Below, in pieces: positions 21,782 through 33,350 of a stretch of DNA of 64,000 nucleotides. The stretch is taken from the NCBI GenBank assembly GCA_020832105.1, contig JAFIFH010000016.1, positions 1 through 64,000 of the forward strand, read 5' to 3'. Each line of letters opens with the position of its first letter. Positions within the stretch are counted from its first letter, which is position 1. The stretch comes from Idiomarina sp. GTDB lineage: Bacteria > Pseudomonadota > Gammaproteobacteria > Enterobacterales > Alteromonadaceae. Position numbers and translations under genes: made by a program. Under the pieces are notes generated by a model, which worked only from the letters and a program-made list of their open reading frames with translations, had not been told where the DNA came from and made no database searches.

Positions 21782-21997
21782 ATGAAGACCATCGAGCCAG
21801 GTACATATCGGCATTACAAAGGGCCTTTATATGAAGTGATCGACACCGTGCGCCACTCAGAAACTGAAGAGTGGCTTGTGCTTTATCGCCCGCTGTATGG
21901 GGAGGGTAAGTTGTGGGTAAGGCCGTATGAGATGTTTACCGAAATAGTAGAAGTCGATGGCAAGTCAGTGGCGCGCTTTGCTTTGGTAGACGGTTAA
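21782..21997 (+). CDS. DUF1653 family protein
   Basis: A 71-residue protein with the DUF1653 pattern GTYRHYKGPLYEVIDTVRHS, then LVLYRPLYGEGKLWVRPYEMF. The fold is a small beta barrel of unknown function found across Proteobacteria. GGAAGGAAG precedes the ATG. It ends 24 bp before the convergent ImmA/IrrE gene and marks the left edge of the defence island. Confidence 0.92.
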   Translation: MKTIEPGTYRHYKGPLYEVIDTVRHSETEEWLVLYRPLYGEGKLWVRPYEMFTEIVEVDGKSVARFALVDG

Positions 21998-22021: not shown

Positions 22022-23176
22022 TCAAAACTTCAGCTCCGCCTTAGCGAAAGCTTTCAGCTTACTGGGTTGGATACCGATTAGATGTTGGGCGTCCCGCAAC
22101 AGCATTCTTCCGCTTAGGGCTTCACTGGCAACCGCAGCCGCGAGATTTTTGCTGTATCGCGTATTAATCAGCCGAGTGAACGGAGGACCACCGTCTTTTT
22201 GACGCTGATTGTCTTTCTCTCTCTTGAACGCGGCGAGTATCTTGCCATAATGCGCCCAGTACTCAGCTTCAGTAATGAGTTGATGTTCGAGTGCTCTACG
22301 TGCGATAACCCAGTGGCTAACATGAAAGTGTGCAGCTAACTCTGGTAAATTAACCTTCCAGTTATCAACTTCACTCTGCCAAAGCTGACTAAACTCAACA
22401 CCTGGCACCAAAAACTCTGCCGCAACTTTATTGCAGAAAGTCTCCACCGCATTGTCGTTTTTATGGTTTAAATCAGATACACCGGACTCACCAAGCAAAA
22501 GGTGAACGAATTCATGTAGTAATGTGAAAATCTGTGCTTGAGAGACATCCGCCGCATTGACGAAAATAACTGGAGCAGACACATCGGCGATAGCAAACCC
22601 TCGGAACTCCTGAGCGTCCAAAGGTCTGTGTGTATTATTGCCCACCACGCTATTGCGCATCACAAGAATGCCAAGCGCTTCCATGCGCTCAATAAGCTGT
22701 AAGTAGTATTGATGGAACTGTGGAGGTCGAGGCTCTCCCCGATCACTCAGGAGTTCACGTACTTTCGCTAATGCACCCTCAAAATTATCCAGTGTCATAT
22801 CGCCGACCCAGGTCAGTGGTGGTAAACCCTGCTCCAGGCGATAGTCCTGATACCAATCTCTGCGCTCGATAGTGGCACGAATGGTGTCTTTAAGAGCCAG
22901 ACTGAATTGACCAATGGGGTGATCACCAACAGTGCGTAAATCAGGAATCGGGAGCTCTTCATGCGGTGGCGTACTAAGGAACAAATACCCAAAGGGTATA
23001 AAGGTTCTGTCAGCAAATCTCTGCGCTTGCTTGAACGTTGGTTTTTTCTCACCTGCTTCCCAGGCTAGCACTTGGTCCTGTTTAATCTTCAGCTTTTCCG
23101 CAATATCGGACACAGCAAACCCTGCTCTTTCACGAGCCCAAGCCAGAATGCTGGGGTTTACGAGTGCTTCAACCAT
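22022..23176 (-). CDS. XRE helix-turn-helix / ImmA-IrrE metallopeptidase
   Basis: A 384-residue protein joining an N-terminal XRE helix-turn-helix (VSDIAEKLKIKQDQVLAWEAG, about residues 23-43) to an ImmA/IrrE-type zinc peptidase with the motif LLHEFVHLLLGESG near residue 217. Such proteins cut repressors in response to signals (ImmA with phage-like ICEBs1, IrrE in Deinococcus) and are common in mobile and defence loci. It lies 310 bp downstream of the restriction operon on the same strand. It could be the regulator of that operon or an independent toxin-antitoxin-like unit; the sequence does not decide. A DUF4411 partner often found next to this family is absent. Confidence 0.88.
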   Translation of the reverse strand: MVEALVNPSILAWARERAGFAVSDIAEKLKIKQDQVLAWEAGEKKPTFKQAQRFADRTFIPFGYLFLSTPPHEELPIPDLRTVGDHPIGQFSLALKDTIRATIERRDWYQDYRLEQGLPPLTWVGDMTLDNFEGALAKVRELLSDRGEPRPPQFHQYYLQLIERMEALGILVMRNSVVGNNTHRPLDAQEFRGFAIADVSAPVIFVNAADVSQAQIFTLLHEFVHLLLGESGVSDLNHKNDNAVETFCNKVAAEFLVPGVEFSQLWQSEVDNWKVNLPELAAHFHVSHWVIARRALEHQLITEAEYWAHYGKILAAFKREKDNQRQKDGGPPFTRLINTRYSKNLAAAVASEALSGRMLLRDAQHLIGIQPSKLKAFAKAELKF

Positions 23177-23486
23177 GGTTTTACAGACCTTGTTCCTGAA
23201 TCGACTAGCGCCGCAGACTTTGCCTACGGCGCATTAAAAATCACAATACATCATTATAACTTAGTCTGGGAAGGGTTGGTGTGGGTCCGAGGTCAATTGC
23301 TCAGCTCAATGGTGAGGATAGCAGTATTGAGCCTGCAGAACGTTGACTTAATAAGAGTTATCAAGCTAAACAGATAAATTTAATGCAAACCTGAAGAGTA
23401 CAACACTCGGATTCAATTAAATAACCAGTTTAATCGGAGAATTTCACCTACTTAAAACCAAATGAATAAATGAGTAATATGATAAA
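23177..23486 (-). other. 310-bp gap before the ImmA/IrrE gene
   Basis: No gene is visible. Read on the minus strand it holds a perfect TATAAT (complement of 23255-23260) about 80 bp before the ImmA/IrrE start, and then a GCGCCG/CGGCGC hairpin (23208-23232) in the presumed leader. The gene therefore probably has its own promoter and is not simply the last gene of the restriction operon. Confidence 0.4.
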
Positions 23487-25937
23487 TCAGTTGCTGTTGC
23501 CTCTCGCCAATATTTCTTCGTAGACTGAGGGTAATTCATTAAAAACTTTAGCATTCACAAGATGCTTAAGCTGGGTCAACTTAATTGATGCATCAAAAGG
23601 GTGATTGGGTACTCCCTGAATCATGGCACTCAAAAGTAATGGTCTACCTAGCTCAAAAAGATAGTAGCTTTCGTTTGACTTTGACGACCTTCCAGTCTGC
23701 TCTGTCGTCATTTCAGCACGAGTAACTAGGCTTACATGCTTAATTGGCCATACTCTACTGATTTGCACGTGTGCAGAACGATCGTCCCCCACGTCTGCGA
23801 TTGCTAAATACCTGATTTCACTAGCAATGTGTCTTCCATACTTGGTAAGAAACAGATTTTGGGGTAGGTGATACCATTGAGCAGAATTTTGTTTAAACTT
23901 CTCAAAGTAAGCATCTTCTCGATTTTCCCTCCTCCCAAGAGCGATAGTCATCGTAAGGTCAGAATAGAGCTTTTGCGACATTCCGTAATGGGGAATACGA
24001 GCAGCCTCTTTAACGTAAAGATTTTCTGCCATCGCTTCAATGGGATACTGAAGGCTGGCCCCAATTTGTTCGCGTAGGAAATTGGTTAGCCAAGTATCGC
24101 AGGAGTTCGGTAATAGAGGAAAAGCACCGATACCTATCTCCTCGATTGCGTCAGAGTATGGATTTTTTTCAGATCTTTGGTCAAAAAATCCAGGATAGAG
24201 CGCGAATGCGCCAAATACGGGGCGGCTTTTTTGTGAAACTAAGCTTTCTGAGTCTTTTTCTTGTGGACCTGCGCTCTGAGATAGGTGTATTAAGGCATCA
24301 CGATAACGATGCATCTGATTAATCGCTTCGTCAGGAACATAATCAGTAGTTTCGTTATTATCTGCGTCAAAACCTCCACTATCTTTTTTGATTTGGTATT
24401 TGGCGTCGAAGATCCAGATAAATTTCTTGCCAGAATTTTTTCTGTTAGTCTTAGGTAGTGTTACTTCTAAGACAATATCAGGCTTCTGGGTGACCAAGTA
24501 TGAACGAATGTTTTTGCCTTGTTTAGAGAATCTCGGTTCGTGAGCGAGTTTCGCCTTCACGCCATCATCTCGGGTGAATTCAAATGCACCGACAAAGCCA
24601 TCTTTGAGTTGATATTCGAAGAAGTCGTTTAAAGTGAGAGTTACCTTATTCGATGTTTCTAGAATAAAGTCCAACTCTGTCTCTAGTATTCGTTTTATAC
24701 ATAGGAAGCACCAGATTTCATAGATTTCTGCGACGGATTTCATGGATACACTGGATTGATTAGAAAAAATATCTAAGTAGAACTTCAGTTCTTGCCACAC
24801 CCTGTAGACAAGGCTATAACCAGTTTTCTGCTGCAGCACAAGAGACTCACGGTTGGAGCTAGTATATCCACCGACTTCCTTGAAGAAGCTTTGATTTGTT
24901 AATTTTCGCAATGGCTCCTGCCATGAATGAAGCTCATTTAGGAATGCATCTGATAAGCGCTGATTCTCAGGTGCTTCATTATTCTTGCGTAAGCCCCTCT
25001 CGAATATTTCGAGCTGCTTTTTGCTTTGTGTGATTACCATTTTTATGAACCTGTTCTCCGGAGTATCCACACTGAGTTGCTTTTTTCTTACTTGATAGCG
25101 CTTATTATACTGCCGAGTAGCGAAATCTTCGTTGATTCTAGCTTCAAGTTTGTGAGGAATCCGCCCCTTCAACCGAGCTGCTTTGTTGAAAAAAACCTGC
25201 GGTTGGAGTCGACTATGCGGAGCTTGGGCAATTACTTTTAAACCTAGTTCGAGACGTTCATGAAGTTGGCTGAAGTTTGCCAACCACATTAATGGGAAGT
25301 GGCCACGTTGCATCCCTTTTGCCGCATCCTGCTCTGTTTTTTCAACTAAGCTAAACCGCCACAAAGGAAAGGTTTGGTCGATCACTTGGTACATAGCTGA
25401 CAAATCTTGATGCAGAATCATTTTAGTTGGAAGAATTTCGAGGGATATGTTGGACCTGTTTGTTTGTCCATTTTCCTCAAACTCTAGTGGTAATAATAAC
25501 CAACCGACATCGTTCCCCGTGCTGATATTTCCCGTTAGTCTAGCTGGCAAACCTGCTCGTTCAGGAACGAAGCGAAAAGCATCGTTTATACGTTTGCTTC
25601 GATGTGTTAGCCGAGCATATTTGGTTGGTAGAAAAAATATCCATTCGAACTGATACTGAGTATTCTCAAAAAATAATGATTCATTTAATGGTAACTCTTC
25701 AATTTTGTTTGGGTCTGGGTGAGCTTCAAGATTCTCAATTTGTCCAAGTACAAACTGATCGAGGATCACTACAGGAGGTGAAAAGCGAACATGTGATCTA
25801 GAATGAAAAGTAGCTTGCGAAAAACTCGGCGCTCGCTTTTCCAAAGTTCTTTTATACACTTGCTGGCGTCTTTCGATATCGTTAGACCATACCGAAAATT
25901 CAAACTGAAGAGTTCTCAGTCGCAGTAATTCAGGCAT
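23487..25937 (-). CDS. DUF2357 PD-(D/E)XK nuclease, McrC-like partner
   Basis: An 816-residue protein. The large N-terminal part matches DUF2357 proteins, which accompany McrB-like ATPases. A PD-(D/E)XK nuclease core is visible in the C-terminal half: PDIVLEVTLP, then IWIFDAKYQIKK (the DAK catalytic pair), near residues 495-525. This subunit should cut DNA when the ATPase next to it translocates or signals target binding, as McrC and LlaJI.R2 do. GAAGAGGA precedes the ATG at 25937. The gene lies 25 bp after the ATPase gene and is clearly richer in A+T than the core genes, a sign of transfer. Confidence 0.85.
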   Translation of the reverse strand: MPELLRLRTLQFEFSVWSNDIERRQQVYKRTLEKRAPSFSQATFHSRSHVRFSPPVVILDQFVLGQIENLEAHPDPNKIEELPLNESLFFENTQYQFEWIFFLPTKYARLTHRSKRINDAFRFVPERAGLPARLTGNISTGNDVGWLLLPLEFEENGQTNRSNISLEILPTKMILHQDLSAMYQVIDQTFPLWRFSLVEKTEQDAAKGMQRGHFPLMWLANFSQLHERLELGLKVIAQAPHSRLQPQVFFNKAARLKGRIPHKLEARINEDFATRQYNKRYQVRKKQLSVDTPENRFIKMVITQSKKQLEIFERGLRKNNEAPENQRLSDAFLNELHSWQEPLRKLTNQSFFKEVGGYTSSNRESLVLQQKTGYSLVYRVWQELKFYLDIFSNQSSVSMKSVAEIYEIWCFLCIKRILETELDFILETSNKVTLTLNDFFEYQLKDGFVGAFEFTRDDGVKAKLAHEPRFSKQGKNIRSYLVTQKPDIVLEVTLPKTNRKNSGKKFIWIFDAKYQIKKDSGGFDADNNETTDYVPDEAINQMHRYRDALIHLSQSAGPQEKDSESLVSQKSRPVFGAFALYPGFFDQRSEKNPYSDAIEEIGIGAFPLLPNSCDTWLTNFLREQIGASLQYPIEAMAENLYVKEAARIPHYGMSQKLYSDLTMTIALGRRENREDAYFEKFKQNSAQWYHLPQNLFLTKYGRHIASEIRYLAIADVGDDRSAHVQISRVWPIKHVSLVTRAEMTTEQTGRSSKSNESYYLFELGRPLLLSAMIQGVPNHPFDASIKLTQLKHLVNAKVFNELPSVYEEILARGNSN

Positions 25938-25962
25938 TCCTCTTCCCTATAGCGCTCAAATT

Positions 25963-27768
25963 TTAAGGCCAAAAACTAGTAAATCCTGATGTAGACAGTC
26001 GGTTCTGCATCCATTCAAGCTTCACCTTACTACGACATGTAATTAAATGTACGGAACCGTCACAATTCTCTCGGTGTAAATCTGGCCTGACTTCTCTGCA
26101 TTCATCAATTTCATTCCAAAACTCTGAGAATTGAGTGTGCAAGACTACTAAAAGTTGCTCTAAAAGAGACGGAGTGCTGCCTAGTTTATCGTAGTCACCC
26201 TCAATGCGTGGTAATACCTTGCACATTAGAAAATCGTCCCAGACTGCTTTTAAGGTAATAGGATCTTTAGGTTTTTGACTAATTACCGCTAGTAGCAGTT
26301 CATTGAGGGCACGGAAGGCTAATTGAAACGGGGTATCTTCTAAGACACGATTCACAGAGTTGAGAAATTCTATACTTAGTTTACCATCACTATCAATTGT
26401 GTCAGTTAGTTCATTTTGGTTGGCATGCGACCATATACTGAAACTTAGTGTTTTGTGATACGTCTTGGATATAAAAAAGTTGGCGTAGTCGTTCGGAAAG
26501 AATTTACCAAAGTCAAAGGTCAGTGCTCTATCTATAACCTTGCGAGAAAAACCGTAAGTAGTCTCATCCATATTTACAGTTCCGGCCACTATAAGATTGA
26601 ATGGAATGCCCAAACCATACTTACACATAAGCAACCAAATATCTTCATACTGCTTGTCCATTAAGCCTAGAGCGAGTCGCAGCTCCTCGGTATTTGCTAC
26701 TTCATTTATTGTACTAGCTTTCAGTAGAGGATCACTTATATACGTAAAATTTTCACCAATCCATTGCCACTCTCGTGTCTCGATTACGGATAAGTAGTCA
26801 GCGAAATACTGTTCAACAGGAGCAAGATTCATTTCGTCTAGGCATAACCAATATGGTAATAATGAATCCAGCATTTTGCGCTCTCCAGTTATTGCCAGAC
26901 GCTCGCCAAAGCCTTCAACCTCGAGGGCCTCAACGTTTAACCCATTATCTATTAGGTGTCGCCAAGCTTTTACTATAAAGTTCATGACATCAGTCATTAC
27001 ATACTCTGGATTTCCGCTAAGCCGTGAAGTATAACCAAGTAAATCACTAGGCTCATGCCAATCAGGGCGTACAGCGGTTAAGCAGTAGTTTTCACTTAGT
27101 GAACCCGTAGCTTTTACCTGATCGCGAACAAAACGTGTTTTGCCGGTCCCGGAAATCCCAGCTAGGAGAACAAAGTTTTTATATATCCGATTTACCTCTG
27201 TCTTCCCTATTTTAGAAGAGGTTGTTTTAGTGTAGTCTTTAATACTTACTTTTATGTCTGTTGGCTTAACTACAAAAGTCTCGATACCATATGAATTTAA
27301 AATTTTCTTTGTTTTATTGATTTCTTCAATGGTTCGCTGAACACCACCGCAGGTTAAGAACGCAAAACGAATATCACCCTGAATTCTTAGTCCGAACCGT
27401 TTTATTACGGTCTGCCACTCATTTATGCTAGAACTCGTCGATTCGAATTTTTGGCCTTTGTATTCTATCTGAAACAACCCATTTTCAAGATCTTTTTTTG
27501 ATCCAATAACAATTATGTCATCAGATTCAAAGAAAACCTCTAGTACATCGTCCTCATTTATGTATCTTTGCTTTTTACTATAGTTATTTAAAACAGTATC
27601 TTTGATATAATTTCGAGAGAGGTGCTCCCCAGCAATGATGCGTAACTCCGGATCTATTTCCAATGAGTCTTGAAATTTTCCAGATGCAGATGAATCTAAC
27701 CCCATGTAACCTACTTCATCTGCTTTTTTATATATATAATCGAAAACTTCTTTTCTACTTCCCTTCAT
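25963..27768 (-). CDS. McrB-like AAA+ restriction ATPase
   Basis: A 601-residue motor protein. The first about 190 residues form a variable region, probably DNA-reading. The AAA+ core follows with Walker A LLAGISGTGKTRF (near residue 205), Walker B LCLDEMNLAPVEQYFADYL (near residue 315) and the sensor segment TVNMDETTYGFSRKVIDRAL (near residue 398), which takes the place of the McrB signature. Proteins with LDEMN and NMDET are typical of LlaJI.R1-type restriction subunits. It should act with the DUF2357 nuclease after it and with the methyltransferase 8 bp before it. AGGTGA precedes the ATG. Confidence 0.88.
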   Translation of the reverse strand: MKGSRKEVFDYIYKKADEVGYMGLDSSASGKFQDSLEIDPELRIIAGEHLSRNYIKDTVLNNYSKKQRYINEDDVLEVFFESDDIIVIGSKKDLENGLFQIEYKGQKFESTSSSINEWQTVIKRFGLRIQGDIRFAFLTCGGVQRTIEEINKTKKILNSYGIETFVVKPTDIKVSIKDYTKTTSSKIGKTEVNRIYKNFVLLAGISGTGKTRFVRDQVKATGSLSENYCLTAVRPDWHEPSDLLGYTSRLSGNPEYVMTDVMNFIVKAWRHLIDNGLNVEALEVEGFGERLAITGERKMLDSLLPYWLCLDEMNLAPVEQYFADYLSVIETREWQWIGENFTYISDPLLKASTINEVANTEELRLALGLMDKQYEDIWLLMCKYGLGIPFNLIVAGTVNMDETTYGFSRKVIDRALTFDFGKFFPNDYANFFISKTYHKTLSFSIWSHANQNELTDTIDSDGKLSIEFLNSVNRVLEDTPFQLAFRALNELLLAVISQKPKDPITLKAVWDDFLMCKVLPRIEGDYDKLGSTPSLLEQLLVVLHTQFSEFWNEIDECREVRPDLHRENCDGSVHLITCRSKVKLEWMQNRLSTSGFTSFWP

Positions 27769-27776
27769 GGAATCAC

Positions 27777-29087
27777 CTAGTTCTGTTCGTTCAAGTAATC
27801 TCTAATCGAGGATGCCACAGCGTATGAAAGAACGGGAGGAACTGCATTTCCAATTTGCATAACATTCGATGTCGCTGAATGTGGGAAAACAAAAGAATCA
27901 GGAAATGTTTGTAATCTCGCGCATTCTCTTATTGTTAAACGCCGGTCAAGCTCGTAGTGAAATTGGACGCGAGACTTTGCATTTGCTCTGATTGTGTAAG
28001 AAGGCGCATCTGCCTTGCAATGCTCGTCACCCTGACCATTCCCCTTTTTGGCTTTGGAAGCCTTAAAGTATTGGCTTTGATTAGGTACTGATTCATCTTG
28101 AATGTTCTCAAGATCTTCAATTGCCCATTTTGTCCCCCGGTAATTATTAGTAAATTTAGCCTCCGGGAGCTTAGGTTGACCGACTAAATCATTTCTGGTA
28201 CATACAAAAAACAACCGCCTTCTGCTCTGAGGGATTCCATAATCAGGTGCGAACAAATTCCAGACTTGAACCCTGTAGCCTTGACCCTCAAAATCTTGAA
28301 TAATAGTGTTTAAAACTTCCCCGTTTTGCATTCTTGCTAAGTTTGGAACATTTTCAGCACAGACAATTTTGGGTTGGTGCAGCTCCATGTATCGTACTAG
28401 CACCTTATACAGCTGGCCCCTTTCAGAAGTAAGGCCTTTTTTGGGTCCACATGAACTAAAATCTTGGCAAGGAAACCCGCCAATTAGGACATCTGCAGGG
28501 GGAAAATGCTGTACTAAATTTTCAGAAAGTTCAACTTGGAAGATTGGTATATTCAAATTTTTCTTTACGGTTTCAACGCACTTTTCATCTTTTTCGTAAG
28601 CAGCTAGAGTTTTGAAAGGCTGCAGAGCAAAGGACTCGTTTTTATATTCAAATCCACCTTCAAATCCCATGTCAAGCCCACCAACGCCAGTAAACATTGA
28701 AACTAAGCTATAAGTGGGGCTGCTTTGCTCTTGAACTTCTTTAATCAAACGCAAATTACAAAATATTTGAAAGCTATTGTATTTAAGCATCGGTTTAATA
28801 GATTTTCCACATACTTCGATATCAATAATGCCATGTTTAGCCAAAGTTTTTAATGTGCGGGAAAGGTTACTTACTGCTCTACCGGTTAAAACTGATAATT
28901 CAGTAATGTTGTCAGGTTTTTTGCTATAAATCAGGTTTAAAAGAAGTCGATTCTCTTCAGATAATACAGCTGCAACAGACTTGATGGAATCAAACCAGAC
29001 ATCCACAGGCGGAGTGTCGTCTTGACGATGCCCCTTGATCCCAACAATACAACCCCTTTCCTCTTGCGTTGCAGAATTCATATCCAT
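27777..29087 (-). CDS. C5-cytosine DNA methyltransferase with N-terminal winged helix
   Basis: A 436-residue fusion. Residues about 30-115 form a winged helix (ITELSVLTGRAVSNLSRTLK, then TLAKHGIIDIEV) like MarR-type regulators. The rest is a C5-cytosine methyltransferase with motif I SMFTGVGGLDMGFEGG, motif IV IGGFPCQDFSS (catalytic Cys), motif VI ENVPNL, motif VIII GIPQSRRRLFFV, motif IX RECARLQTFPDSF and motif X GNAVPP. It protects the host's target sites from the McrB-like/DUF2357 nuclease encoded after it. The winged helix probably binds the perfect palindrome 40 bp upstream and limits the operon's own expression. AAGGGA precedes the ATG; a second ATG follows two codons later. Confidence 0.9.
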   Translation of the reverse strand: MDMNSATQEERGCIVGIKGHRQDDTPPVDVWFDSIKSVAAVLSEENRLLLNLIYSKKPDNITELSVLTGRAVSNLSRTLKTLAKHGIIDIEVCGKSIKPMLKYNSFQIFCNLRLIKEVQEQSSPTYSLVSMFTGVGGLDMGFEGGFEYKNESFALQPFKTLAAYEKDEKCVETVKKNLNIPIFQVELSENLVQHFPPADVLIGGFPCQDFSSCGPKKGLTSERGQLYKVLVRYMELHQPKIVCAENVPNLARMQNGEVLNTIIQDFEGQGYRVQVWNLFAPDYGIPQSRRRLFFVCTRNDLVGQPKLPEAKFTNNYRGTKWAIEDLENIQDESVPNQSQYFKASKAKKGNGQGDEHCKADAPSYTIRANAKSRVQFHYELDRRLTIRECARLQTFPDSFVFPHSATSNVMQIGNAVPPVLSYAVASSIRDYLNEQN

Positions 29088-29357: not shown

Positions 29358-29431
29358 TGACGGTCCCCCAATAAAAAGAGCCACAAGGTCGATGAATTTG
29401 TGCATGATGAAAACCTTAAGAGGACCATGCC

Positions 29432-29698
29432 ATGAAATCAAAACGTTTTTCGGTCGAACAAATTGTGTCGGCTATCAAGCAACATGAAGCGGGCTTATCG
29501 ATTGCCGAAGTGGCCCGCAAAATGGGCATTGCAGAAGGTACTTTTTACGCATGGAAGAAAAGGTACTCGGGCCTTGAATCGGATCAAGTTCGCGAACTGA
29601 AACAGTTACGCGAAGAAAATGAGAAGCTTAAACGTATTGTGGCGGAATTAACGCTCGACAAAGTGATGTTGCAGGATCTGAACACCCGAAAGTGGTGA
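29432..29698 (+). CDS. IS3-family transposase OrfA
   Basis: An 88-residue helix-turn-helix protein (VEQIVSAIKQHEAGLSIAEV, then ARKMGIAEGTFYAWKKRYSG) with a leucine-zipper-like tail (LKQLREENEKLKRIVAELTL) that ends DKVMLQDLNTRKW, typical of the IS407 group. It is the DNA-binding half of the transposase and normally acts with OrfB, whose gene is broken here, so OrfA alone could at most bind the element's ends or act on related copies. Confidence 0.9.
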   Translation: MKSKRFSVEQIVSAIKQHEAGLSIAEVARKMGIAEGTFYAWKKRYSGLESDQVRELKQLREENEKLKRIVAELTLDKVMLQDLNTRKW

Positions 29699-30521
29699 GC
29701 GTACCGCAGCGTCGTATGGCGGTGCGCCATCTAATGAGCTTTTATCACATCAGTGCGCGACGAGCATGCTCGCTGACCAAATTGAGTCGTACAGCCTGTC
29801 GCTATAAGCCTCGCTCTGAGCCCCAGGAGGCGCTACGCCAGCGCATCGTATAGATCGCGCGCACTCGAATCCGCTATGGCTACAAGCGCATTCATGTGAT
29901 GCTAAAACGTGAAGGCATTCACGTGAACAAAAAGCGTATTCATCGCCTGTACTGTCTGGAGGGACTTCAGTTACGCCCTAAACGGCCTCGACGTAATGTC
30001 AGTGGTGCACATCGTAAACGCGACTACATCGCCAGCACAAGGCCGAACGAGACATGGGCGATGGATTTTGTTGCAGACCAGCTTGCTACTGGAAATAAGT
30101 TTCGCATTCTGACCGTTGTTGATACGTTTACGCGAGAATGTTTAGCAGGCGACGTTGGCGCTCGATTACGTTCGGAGAATGTCGTCGCAACATTAACCCG
30201 ACTTTGTCGGGAGGGGGTGCTCCAACGCGTATCCACTGCGACAACGGCAGCGAATTTTCGGGGCAAATGACCGATCTTTGGGCCTATACCAGCAAGGTTA
30301 CATTGGCTTTCTCGCGTCCTGGTAAACCGACGGACAATGCTTATATCGAATCACTGAATGGAAGCTTTCGAGATGAATGCCTCAACTGTCACTGGTTTGA
30401 ATCGCTAGCCGATGCTAAATTGAAAATCGAAGCTTGGCGGGATGACTATAACAAGAGTCGACCTCACCGGGCTTTAAATAACCTGCCACCCTTGCAGTTT
30501 GTGGCATCCATTAAAGATTGA
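29695..30521 (+). pseudogene. IS3-family transposase OrfB (integrase core), inactivated
   Basis: The frame starts with GTG at 29695, overlapping the orfA end. It is interrupted by TAG at 29851-29853 inside LRQRIV-stop-IARTRIRYGYKRIH, where family members have an acidic residue, so a single base change (for example GAG to TAG) is likely. A second lesion lies in the G-run at 30213-30217: five Gs instead of six break the frame between LTRLCREG and GAPTRIHCDNGSEF. Downstream of it the integrase core with its final acidic residue (SLNGSFRDECL) is readable to 30521. Two lesions make this a true pseudogene rather than a programmed frameshift. Confidence 0.88.
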
Positions 30522-30644
30522 ACAGCTCAATTCAGTCTACGAGTGGTTCTAAAAATGGGGGCCTGTCATAAAAACTGAAATCTCATTGAAAACGTGGTGT
30601 TATTTCAGGGGAAAAGTCAGTCTATCGTTAGCTAAGAAGCGTAG

Positions 30645-30677: not shown

Positions 30678-30872
30678 ATGTCTCTAGCCCATGAAGCTGA
30701 ATTTGGCTGTCCTTATTGTATGGCGCCAAATTCCATCGAAATCGATCCCATCAACGATCTCAATCAGCAACAAATTGTCGATTGCCAAATTTGCTGTCAG
30801 CCCATTGAACTTCTGGCCGTTGAGATCGGTGATGGTGAATTTGAAATACATGCACGTACTGACGATGAATAG
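30678..30872 (+). CDS. CPXCG-motif cysteine-rich protein, intact
   Basis: A 64-residue protein with two CxxC pairs (GCPYC near residue 12 and DCQIC near residue 37), the pattern of the CPXCG family of small, probably zinc-binding proteins of unknown function. AGGAG precedes the ATG. The last 31 codons (30780-30872) exist a second time 1398 bp downstream as a diverged fragment, so this gene seems to be a hybrid: an old 5' part joined to a 3' part brought in by the HNH cassette, or the reverse. Confidence 0.85.
   Translation: MSLAHEAEFGCPYCMAPNSIEIDPINDLNQQQIVDCQICCQPIELLAVEIGDGEFEIHARTDDE
30780..30796 (+). repeat. 17-bp direct repeat, left copy (cassette junction)
   Basis: GATTGCCAAATTTGCTG occurs here inside the CPXCG gene and again at 32178-32194 in the gene fragment, exactly 1398 bp apart. 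Past it the two copies drop to about 70% identity. It marks the likely left edge of the HNH cassette, like an attachment core or a point of homologous exchange. Confidence 0.6.
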
Positions 30873-30957
30873 TAATAAATAAACCTCATAACAGAACACT
30901 TGGCTAATCAGCTATTATTTGTAATCCTGACTGTATAACAGTGCATAAGGATGATAA

Positions 30958-32115
30958 ATGCCTCTGCCCAATCTCGACAAATACTTATACGCATTCAAGG
31001 ACGTTCGCCCGAATCGGTCAAATGGGAGCACTAGTCCGCACAAAGTATGCATGCTTTACGCAATCATGAATTTGATTGAAGAGGGACGAATTAAGCGAAA
31101 TGTGGTTTACTTTACATCCGAGCTTAAAAATCGCTTTGCCTGGCACTTTGAAAGGTACAAAAGCGGCAATGACGCCCTCAACCCAGGGCTTCCATTTTTC
31201 CACCTTCGTTCTTCAGGCTTTTGGCATCACATTGTTCGTCCTGGCCAAGAAGAAACTTACAAATCCCTTAGGTCACCCTCCGAGAAATCGATTCTTGAAA
31301 CCATTGAACACGTCTCTCTTGACCCTGAACTCTACCAATTGCTGCAGGATCCGGTTTGCGCTGCTCAGTTGCGCATAGCGTTGGCGGACAATCTAGACTC
31401 TCGAGAAGAGGGATTCGAGCAGTGGGCGAAAGCCACCGGTAGGACAGATAAAACGATAAAAAACTATATTGGTGCACTCAAAGGTTCAATATCTAACTGG
31501 TTATCAGAAGCAGGTTTGATTGAGCAGAACTTACTGACCATTTCAGATTACTTTGAAATTCAACGCTTAAGTAATGGTGCTATGAAATTGCAAGAATTCA
31601 GCGATTACGATTCGCGCGGTAAAGGCATGTACAAAGCAGCGTTGAATCTTTATCGGGAATATTTGGACGAATTAACGGATGCGACAGTGATACAGGATGT
31701 TTACACTATCGAGCAAGATAGTACATTGCAGCCAACTGAGAAAACGATTCTGGTCCAAGCCCGAAGAGGTCAAGGCAAGTTTCGAGAGCGTCTTATCGCT
31801 CATTGGAAGCGCTGTGCAGTAACCCACTATGACAAAGTCTCTCTACTTGTCGCATCGCATATTAAATCTTGGGCAAAGTCGAATAATGGTGAACGACTTG
31901 ACCCATACAATGGGTTATTACTTTCGCCAAACCTTGATAAGGCTTTTGATCTGCATTACTTATCTTTCGCCGAGAACGGCAAGCTTCTTATTGCTGAACA
32001 GCTTGGTGATTACGAGAAGCTAGGTATCTATAAAGAGATGACCATACCGCTGCATAGCTTGCATCAGGAGTACATGGCCTTTCACCGAGAGAGCTTCTAT
32101 AACAAACGCATGTGA
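30958..32115 (+). CDS. HNH endonuclease, putative modification-dependent (type IV) restriction enzyme
   Basis: A 385-residue protein with three parts. The N-terminus (about residues 1-110: DKYLYAFKDVRPNRSNGSTS, PHKVCMLYAIMNLIEEGRI, PFFHLRSSGFWHH) resembles the sulfur-binding domains of phosphorothioate-dependent HNH nucleases such as ScoMcrA. A middle part (TDKTIKNYIGALKGSISNWL, then RGKGMYKAALNLYREYL) is seen in restriction enzymes before the catalytic domain. The C-terminus is an HNH nuclease (LLVASHIKSWAKS, then DPYNGLLLSPNLDKAFD) with the catalytic His and Asn in place. The sulfur link is inferred from pattern memory only. No modification genes are adjacent. It lies between the two CPXCG copies, so it is the cargo of that cassette. 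Confidence 0.8.
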   Translation: MPLPNLDKYLYAFKDVRPNRSNGSTSPHKVCMLYAIMNLIEEGRIKRNVVYFTSELKNRFAWHFERYKSGNDALNPGLPFFHLRSSGFWHHIVRPGQEETYKSLRSPSEKSILETIEHVSLDPELYQLLQDPVCAAQLRIALADNLDSREEGFEQWAKATGRTDKTIKNYIGALKGSISNWLSEAGLIEQNLLTISDYFEIQRLSNGAMKLQEFSDYDSRGKGMYKAALNLYREYLDELTDATVIQDVYTIEQDSTLQPTEKTILVQARRGQGKFRERLIAHWKRCAVTHYDKVSLLVASHIKSWAKSNNGERLDPYNGLLLSPNLDKAFDLHYLSFAENGKLLIAEQLGDYEKLGIYKEMTIPLHSLHQEYMAFHRESFYNKRM

Positions 32116-32177
32116 TGCGTACTCAAGTATTTAGGCTGCTTTAAGCTGTGATTGAGAATATAAGAAAAAGTGACTTG

Positions 32178-32270
32178 GATTGCCAAATTTGCTGCCAGCC
32201 AATTGAGCTAATGGTGGTGGAGGTGGGCGATGGTGAGTTTGAGGTGCACGCTAGAACCGATGATGAATAA
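32178..32270 (+). pseudogene. 3' fragment of a second CPXCG gene
   Basis: The 31 codons from 32178 to the stop at 32268-32270 encode DCQICCQPIELMVVEVGDGE and then FEVHARTDDE. Against the intact gene's last 31 codons, length is equal, 26 of 30 residues agree, but I count 22 base differences in 93, nearly all in third positions. It has no start of its own. It looks like the displaced 3' end of the CPXCG gene left after insertion of the HNH cassette. Confidence 0.8.
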
Positions 32271-32332: not shown

Positions 32333-32863
32333 ATGTATTCGCACGGAAGCGCACCCGCACCCATGTCTGATAAAGAGAATAAAGCCGAAGTTAGCCTGAT
32401 AAAAAAGTGTATGGCGATTTTCGCTATCTTGTTGTTGCCTGCCTTGGCGTATGTGGTTATGACCCTGGGCCAGCCTCATCGAGCTTTCGAAGAGCTAGAG
32501 CCGGTGATTGGCTATGTCCAACAAGTTCGTACGCCGAGCTCCAGCCGCAGGTTTCAGCGGGCGGAGACCTATATCACGGTGAACAACAAGATATTTGTCC
32601 TGCCAGGTCACTATAATCTTGAGTACTTGCAACAGAACCGTGAACCTGTCCGGCTCTTTGTTGACGGTCGCGATACCTGGGTGCTGCAAACTCGAGAACA
32701 CACTCTGCTCGGTTATTTAGACGCTGAGCAGCGTTATAGAAATTTACGAAGAATCGATTATGGGCTTGCCCTGGCTATCATGCTGGGGTTCTTTTCCCTC
32801 ATATTCACGATGGTTAGGCGAGTCATGAAGGGCGAAAGCGCGTTTTCTCGCAAAAAATATTAA
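32333..32863 (+). CDS. Two-helix membrane protein, function unknown
   Basis: Up to 176 residues, with one membrane helix near residues 24-45 (MAIFAILLLPALAYVVMTLG) and one near residues 143-163 (YGLALAIMLGFFSLIFTMV), and about 95 residues between them that should lie in the periplasm. The start could be 32333 or, more typically for its polar MSDKENK opening, 32363. I do not recognise the family. It closes the accessory region on the right. Confidence 0.6.
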   Translation: MYSHGSAPAPMSDKENKAEVSLIKKCMAIFAILLLPALAYVVMTLGQPHRAFEELEPVIGYVQQVRTPSSSRRFQRAETYITVNNKIFVLPGHYNLEYLQQNREPVRLFVDGRDTWVLQTREHTLLGYLDAEQRYRNLRRIDYGLALAIMLGFFSLIFTMVRRVMKGESAFSRKKY

Positions 32864-33140: not shown

Positions 33141-33350
33141 ATGTCTAATACTGTAACTGGTACTGTAAAGTGGTTTAACGAAGCTAAAGGTTTTGGTTTT
33201 CTAGAGCAGCAAGGCGGAGCAGACGTATTTGCTCATTTCAGCGCTATCTCTAGCAGCGGCTTCAAAACACTGACTGAAGGTCAAGCTGTTGAATTTTCTG
33301 TTACACAGGGTCCTAAAGGTCCTCAAGCAGAAAACATCGTAGCACTGTAA
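33141..33350 (+). CDS. CspA-family cold-shock protein
   Basis: A 69-residue nucleic-acid-binding protein with the RNA-binding motifs KGFGFLEQ and DVFAHFSAI and the start [15 protein letters not shown]. Such proteins melt RNA structure at low temperature. The gene is preceded by about 275 bp without a gene, the right size for the long structured leader that regulates cold-shock messages, though I cannot point to a specific cold box. AGGA lies before the ATG, and a strong terminator follows. Confidence 0.95.

Follow-up and report, generated by a model that had tools for sequence, protein, structure and literature searches.

How does a small conserved gene come to be followed by a nuclease gene and then by a second, recoded copy of its own 3′ end? 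The question is posed by a 64,000-nucleotide stretch of Idiomarina sp. DNA (contig JAFIFH010000016.1; hereafter, the window), part of a genome of 3.03 Mb in 77 contigs that is 92.8% complete. A first-pass annotation of this sequence had described an intact CPXCG gene, an HNH nuclease gene and, lacking a start, a second copy of the final 31 CPXCG codons, in that order, and all of these coordinates hold (Table 1). It had read the arrangement as the insertion of a 1398-bp unit, corresponding to segment 30780–32177, that rebuilt the host gene with a 3′ end of its own. We find that the CPXCG-HNH-stub arrangement is most likely what an exchange of DNA between related species has left behind, and not a new kind of mobile element; a mobile mechanism of the homing or cassette type is not supported.

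Table 1. Features of the CPXCG-HNH-stub locus and its surroundings, with methyltransferase genes of other SBD-HNH loci; positions are those of the window unless a locus is named
Feature	Position	Strand	Remarks
g21782, small conserved gene, likely ancestral left neighbour of CPXCG	21782..21997	+	directly upstream of CPXCG in Aliidiomarina soli and P. piscicola
Defence island between g21782 and CPXCG	22022..29087	-	domain matches
IS3-like element, one copy, with a broken transposase frame	29380..30560 (approximate ends)	+	
Intact CPXCG gene, 64 aa, cysteine-rich CPXCG protein	30678..30872	+	Pfam PF14255, E 2.2e-14
17-base stretch, copy 1 (codons 35-40 of intact CPXCG)	30780..30796	+	
Spacer CPXCG-HNH, 85 bp	30873..30957	.	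best match to relatives' loci 17 bases, E 0.008
SBD-HNH gene, 385 aa, predicted phosphorothioate-dependent restriction endonuclease	30958..32115	+	HNH_2 PF13391, E 1.2e-10
Sulfur-binding domain (SBD), residues 8-145	30979..31392	+	SBDHga (8h0l), E 7.3e-35
HNH nuclease domain, residues 243-383	31684..32106	+	6yex, E 2.1e-28; H301, N318, K328
Spacer HNH-stub, 62 bp	32116..32177	.	no recognisable methyltransferase remnant
17-base stretch, copy 2	32178..32194	+	
Stub, start-less second copy of last 31 CPXCG codons incl. stop	32178..32270	+	
Cold-shock-like gene (csp)	33141..33350	+	in A. soli and A. sedimenti, too, conserved to the right of CPXCG
Methyltransferase genes of other SBD-HNH loci	L048:9268-9894; L062:10281-10865; L155:5912-7609; L149:5658-6410; also L158, L159, L160		

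A search of the genome returned CPXCG at two places, the intact gene and the stub, whose homology is far beyond chance (E 8.7e-14). Read in a 40-residue frame that starts with the GTG at 32148, the stub matches PF14255 with an E value of 9.7e-6; this open frame of 40 codons, extending from 32148 to 32270, places ten new codons before the CPXCG tail and is probably there by chance. As the annotation had counted, the first 17 bases of the stub are those of codons 35–40 of the intact gene, and the two ends differ at 22 of 93 bases (71/93 identical overall, 54/76 past the shared 17) and agree in 26 of 30 residues. Change is mostly silent: of the 18 codons that differ, 14 do so silently, the stop included, and four with a change of residue. 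Since the differences are mostly silent and the protein was kept, both 3′ ends must have belonged to working genes until recently.

How far apart the two ends lie can be gauged against other species. Codons that specify the same residue are identical at 13 of 26 positions between the intact end and the stub, and at 10 of 24 and 12 of 26 positions between these two 3′ ends and A. soli. By this measure, the divergence of the two ends is about that between genes of different species. Such divergence under protein constraint suggests that one 3′ end probably came in recently from a related species; an old paralogue is the less likely source. That the two ends are the DNA of different lineages, as the annotation proposed, is supported as the most likely view.

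The closest CPXCG proteins to that of the window are those of A. soli (83%) and A. sedimenti (81%), by which the genome would belong to a relative of these two, in Aliidiomarina. At the 22 differing sites, A. soli agrees with the stub at ten and with the intact end at six, A. sedimenti agrees with either at seven, and the sum over 21 relatives is 177 matches for the stub and 152 for the intact end; over all 93 bases, A. soli is identical to the stub at 72 and to the intact 3′ end at 68. The empty site that the annotation envisaged, positions 30678–30779 joined to 32178–32270, is 77.4% identical to A. soli and the intact gene 75.4%, all relatives with an uninterrupted CPXCG gene being too distant for this comparison to decide on an empty site. 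In a tree of 90 bases of the 3′ part, the intact end and the stub are neighbours with weak support (86/68); silent sites look saturated, and no supported branch of this tree places the window's 3′ ends. A tree of 102 bases of the 5′ part groups the intact gene with A. soli, A. sedimenti and most Pseudidiomarina, and a 99/99 split, on bootstrap values that the program itself calls rough, separates it from A. indica and its neighbours, so that a donor is hardly to be sought in the A. indica clade. Alignment of the flanks, about 100 bases around both copies, to the 21 relatives gave no z above 2.9, and neither spacer had informative matches in the relatives' loci.

We then considered the 17-base stretch, which consists of conserved CPXCG codons. 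It is the longest exact direct repeat within 500 bases in the window, the corresponding repeats at 29 other HNH loci measuring 8–12 bases. Of the 231 pairs formed by the CPXCG genes of the window and 21 relatives, 15 nevertheless have 17 or more identical bases in a row from the same codon, and the window's intact gene shares this identity with two of the 21 relatives. Because it is common to that many pairs, the identity is poor evidence for a recombination core, and we dropped the stretch as such. We likewise dropped a patch in which the CPXCG genes of A. soli and A. sedimenti differ at nine of 45 bases from codon 35, a candidate footprint of a past insertion; it ranks third among the densest 45-base intervals (10, 9, 9, 8 ...) of a 10.3-kb alignment with 467 differences.

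By its domains, the HNH protein looks like a modification-dependent, phosphorothioate-dependent restriction enzyme in which an SBD is joined to an HNH domain, and its predicted function would be to cleave incoming DNA with a sulfur-bearing backbone. Residues H28, K29 and P79, placed by motif, occupy the sulfur-pocket positions of ScoMcrA, which are H116, R/K117 and P165 in the passages available from PMC6224610; the position of ScoMcrA Tyr164 is a leucine in the window protein and varies within the SBD family according to the same passages. The catalytic histidine and asparagine of the HNH domain are present, and its third position is a lysine in all seven aligned proteins. PADLOC assigned HNH and type II restriction models, and the NCBIfam model for restriction of phosphorothioated DNA (NF045808) matched with an E value of 8.6e-14, but at 51 bits against a cut-off of 180. 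The SBD-HNH enzymes EcoWI, SprMcrA, Bsp305I and others, as far as excerpts of PMC7461809 describe them, have the same N-terminal SBD, the H-K ... P-F-F-x-L pattern and a C-terminal HNH domain. The window protein departs from them in its NF045808 score below the cut-off and in the lysine at the third HNH position, and its gene has CPXCG as a neighbour, accompanied in relatives by a small methyltransferase gene. DndC, the one Dnd family sought, was not found in the window's genome (92.8% complete), in a search whose cut-off was passed by none of 14 control genomes; this absence fits a phosphorothioate-dependent restriction enzyme. The nearest relative does not switch along the HNH protein. The annotation had further suggested that recoding protects the rebuilt gene from the nuclease; this idea is left without support, since the enzyme is by sequence modification-dependent and nothing suggests that it recognises CPXCG DNA.

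Twelve of the 16 other genomes in the genus have a CPXCG match (E ≤ 0.001). The genes g21235, g21782 and CPXCG stand side by side in A. soli; in the window, the defence island (22.0–29.1 kb) and the broken IS3-like element separate g21782 from CPXCG. A. sedimenti, which has five flanking genes in common with the window (g11225, g21235, g21782, csp and g33467; 72–96% identity), carries g21782-HNH-methyltransferase-CPXCG in one 10-kb stretch (L048), with an HNH protein 61–62% identical to that of the window. The order in A. indica (L062) is CPXCG-methyltransferase-HNH, with 60% identity of the HNH protein. The structure described by the annotation stands, but the insertion that it proposed is weakened by the order already found in A. 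sedimenti, which comes near the arrangement, ancestral in relatives, that the annotation had named as the case against itself.

Across 395 genomes of the family, 69 contain some match to the nuclease (E ≤ 1e-10) and 22 places hold a near-full-length HNH gene. Besides the window, six of the other 21 places lie within 25 kb of CPXCG, at 0.7, 0.7, 3.2, 20, 21 and 24 kb, and two more genomes (G183 and G268) have the HNH gene beside g11225, with no CPXCG for either among the matches listed. The nearest HNH relative of the window (65% identity) lies 20 kb from CPXCG in its own genome, G008. HNH identity is 70% between A. sedimenti and A. indica and 61% between A. sedimenti and the window, which runs against the kinship of g21235 (window to A. 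sedimenti 90%, window to A. indica 59%); on these comparisons, the HNH gene seems to move between lineages and yet to return to the same variable region. The HNH genes at the CPXCG place in the window and in A. sedimenti need not be there by common descent. Just upstream of CPXCG, the A. soli–A. sedimenti alignment steps from 95% identity on the right to 84% on the left, which suggests an exchange boundary there too.

Taken together, an account of the locus emerges that we favour, if tentatively, over the others: exchange between congeners put a second CPXCG gene upstream of a resident nuclease gene, and the resident CPXCG gene lost its 5′ part. In Aliidiomarina and Pseudidiomarina, the accessory nuclease gene would have its place in the variable surroundings of g11225-g21235-g21782-CPXCG, and in the window's lineage the resident order would have been the nuclease followed by CPXCG. 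Exchange with a congener would have placed the complete second CPXCG upstream of the nuclease, probably together with the defence island and the IS3-like element (22.0–30.6 kb). A deletion with its end at codon 35 would then have removed the first 34 codons of the resident CPXCG, by now redundant, and left the stub. We infer the exchange, the deletion and the order in which things happened; the domains, the two gene orders in relatives and the difference between the 3′ ends are observed. Because both gene orders exist in relatives, HNH before CPXCG in A. sedimenti and CPXCG before HNH in A. indica, the CPXCG-HNH-CPXCG order needs no special machinery, and the breakpoint of the stub needs no special site. 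The recurrence of the HNH gene near CPXCG or g11225, the identity step upstream of CPXCG, the retention of protein by both 3′ ends and the restriction-type domains of the nuclease all point the same way. Several observations sit less well with exchange and deletion: two steps are invoked where one insertion would do, no relative was seen to carry a complete CPXCG gene on each side of the nuclease, the 5′ tree speaks against a donor from the A. indica clade, the spacer before the stub retains no recognisable piece of a methyltransferase gene, no crossover is visible inside the HNH gene, and the HNH protein is less similar between the window and A. sedimenti than are the five flanking genes. On exchange between congeners, the locus is a snapshot of a defence gene and a conserved neighbour being reshuffled between related species, with a readable trace left behind.

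A more doubtful account is the single insertion itself, in which a 1398-bp unit made up of a foreign CPXCG 3′ end and the nuclease gene entered the resident CPXCG gene at codon 35, either through a single crossover or through break repair. The intact gene would then be a hybrid of native 5′ and foreign 3′ parts and the stub the native 3′ end, as in the mobile ORFs (mORFs) of fungal mitochondria. One step would explain why both copies have the same start and length, the stub is slightly nearer A. soli, and the 5′ part likewise has A. soli and A. sedimenti as its nearest relatives; summed over the 21 relatives, however, the differing sites favour the two ends about equally. The anatomy is that of the mORFs described in the accessible passages of PMC3630166 for atp6, cox2 and nad3 of Glomus sp. 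and atp6 of Allomyces macrogynus: a gene with one 3′ end, a nuclease ORF and a diverged second 3′ end, with 63.5% DNA identity and 91% protein identity between the two ends of Glomus atp6. A whole gene, a nuclease gene and a second 3′ end are likewise present in the window. The fungal elements, in the same passages, encode LAGLIDADG or GIY-YIG endonucleases and have hit several genes, whereas the window offers one bacterial case with an enzyme of a modification-dependent family, matched best by restriction-type SBD and HNH proteins and not by a homing family. That the window holds a bacterial counterpart of the mORFs, in which a restriction-type nuclease travels with its neighbour's recoded 3′ end and replaces that of the host so that the gene stays whole, we regard as unlikely. 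Were insertion the true course of events, restriction genes could spread in the manner of homing genes, which would bear on how defence islands grow. A nuclease beside a recoded gene end resembles homing; the domains and the relatives' gene orders, in this case, favour ordinary exchange, and we advise caution with similar loci.

Insertion of such a unit is also at odds with the searches for further examples. Other cassettes at the same codon, for which the annotation had suggested a search, were seen neither in 96 genomes nor among the matches listed in 395 family genomes, the window's own included in both (the latter to E ~2e-10, beyond which very diverged stubs would escape); no other CPXCG stub was found in either set. 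The HNH genes of A. sedimenti and A. indica adjoin CPXCG with no stub found there, and the CPXCG protein compared with its own locus at 72 loci of 20 kb gave only antisense or weak matches. Nor does the HNH gene behave as a unit that carries the ends of its target genes: a duplicated gene end was seen at none of 36 other HNH loci, 14 of which match only part of the nuclease protein. Twenty-nine of these were examined with flanks of up to 3 kb (five loci shorter; eight matching part of the protein only), with short or weak flank matches at L164, L169, L174 and L177. The other seven, six of them partial, came from a class-wide search of 369 genomes, with flanks of up to 1.5 kb (96 bases in one case) and short weak flank matches at L186, L191 and L192. 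One of these loci merits separate mention: at L174:1400-2700, a short HNH relative (a 237-residue frame that matches from residue 152 on) lies between 20-base repeats that look like integron attC sites.

An old tandem duplication of CPXCG in this lineage, followed by the arrival of the nuclease gene between the copies and by truncation, is improbable; the weak pairing of the intact end and the stub in the 3′ tree agrees with it, but silent divergence of the size seen between species does not, and among the matches listed no other genome of the genus has a second strong CPXCG match (second matches at E 0.001–0.01 occur in G002 and G004).

Least probable of all, and by our estimate very much so, is that codons 35–40 are the attachment core of a once integrase-bearing, since mostly lost element that brought its own 3′ end: integrase-type integration into a gene does leave a direct repeat and a rebuilt 3′ end, but no recombinase gene was recognised in 30780–32177 (the HNH gene, which fills the segment, was scanned for domains; its other frames have at most 100 residues), no recurrence at this codon was seen among the matches listed, the 17-base identity arises between species' genes anyway, the degenerate pattern of codons 35–42 had no exact match in viral contigs, and CPXCG was absent from 50,697 phage records. 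The annotation had likewise seen no integrase, and because none is seen in the segment, the homologous exchange that it offered as one route is a fair guess. Phage 21 and e14 are integrative elements that enter icd, a protein gene, and restore its 3′ part; the direct repeat and the rebuilt, recoded 3′ end are features that the window shares with them, from which it differs in showing no integrase, no recurrence among the matches listed and a segment of 1.4 kb only. Viral contigs contained no close relative of the HNH protein, phage records held its HNH half only (two records), and plasmids carried distant nuclease relatives in 88 records, all below 60% identity.

The surroundings of the locus include further genes of interest. 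The island upstream of CPXCG encodes an HTH/IrrE-peptidase protein, a DUF2357-PD-(D/E)XK protein, an AAA protein (PDC-M26A by PADLOC; AAA_5 at no better than E 0.021) and a C5 cytosine methyltransferase whose N-terminus has an additional HTH-like part (PF25212); it resembles LlaJI-type restriction. In the adjacent IS3-like element, present once genome-wide, orfB is split into several frames. The right neighbour of the stub, g32333 (32333–32863), encodes a 176-residue protein with no Pfam family at cut-off and with relatives in none of the 57 other genomes searched (1/58, its own genome). In A. soli, the right neighbour is a transporter gene, of which the window's genome has only a 49% relative, on a different contig. 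At other SBD-HNH loci, a gene for a SAM-dependent methyltransferase stands beside or near the nuclease gene in seven of the 11 checked, and none was seen in the window. The three such proteins scanned against Pfam are Methyltransf_23/25, those compared are 23–63% alike, and the methyltransferase is a possible partner gene of SBD-HNH.
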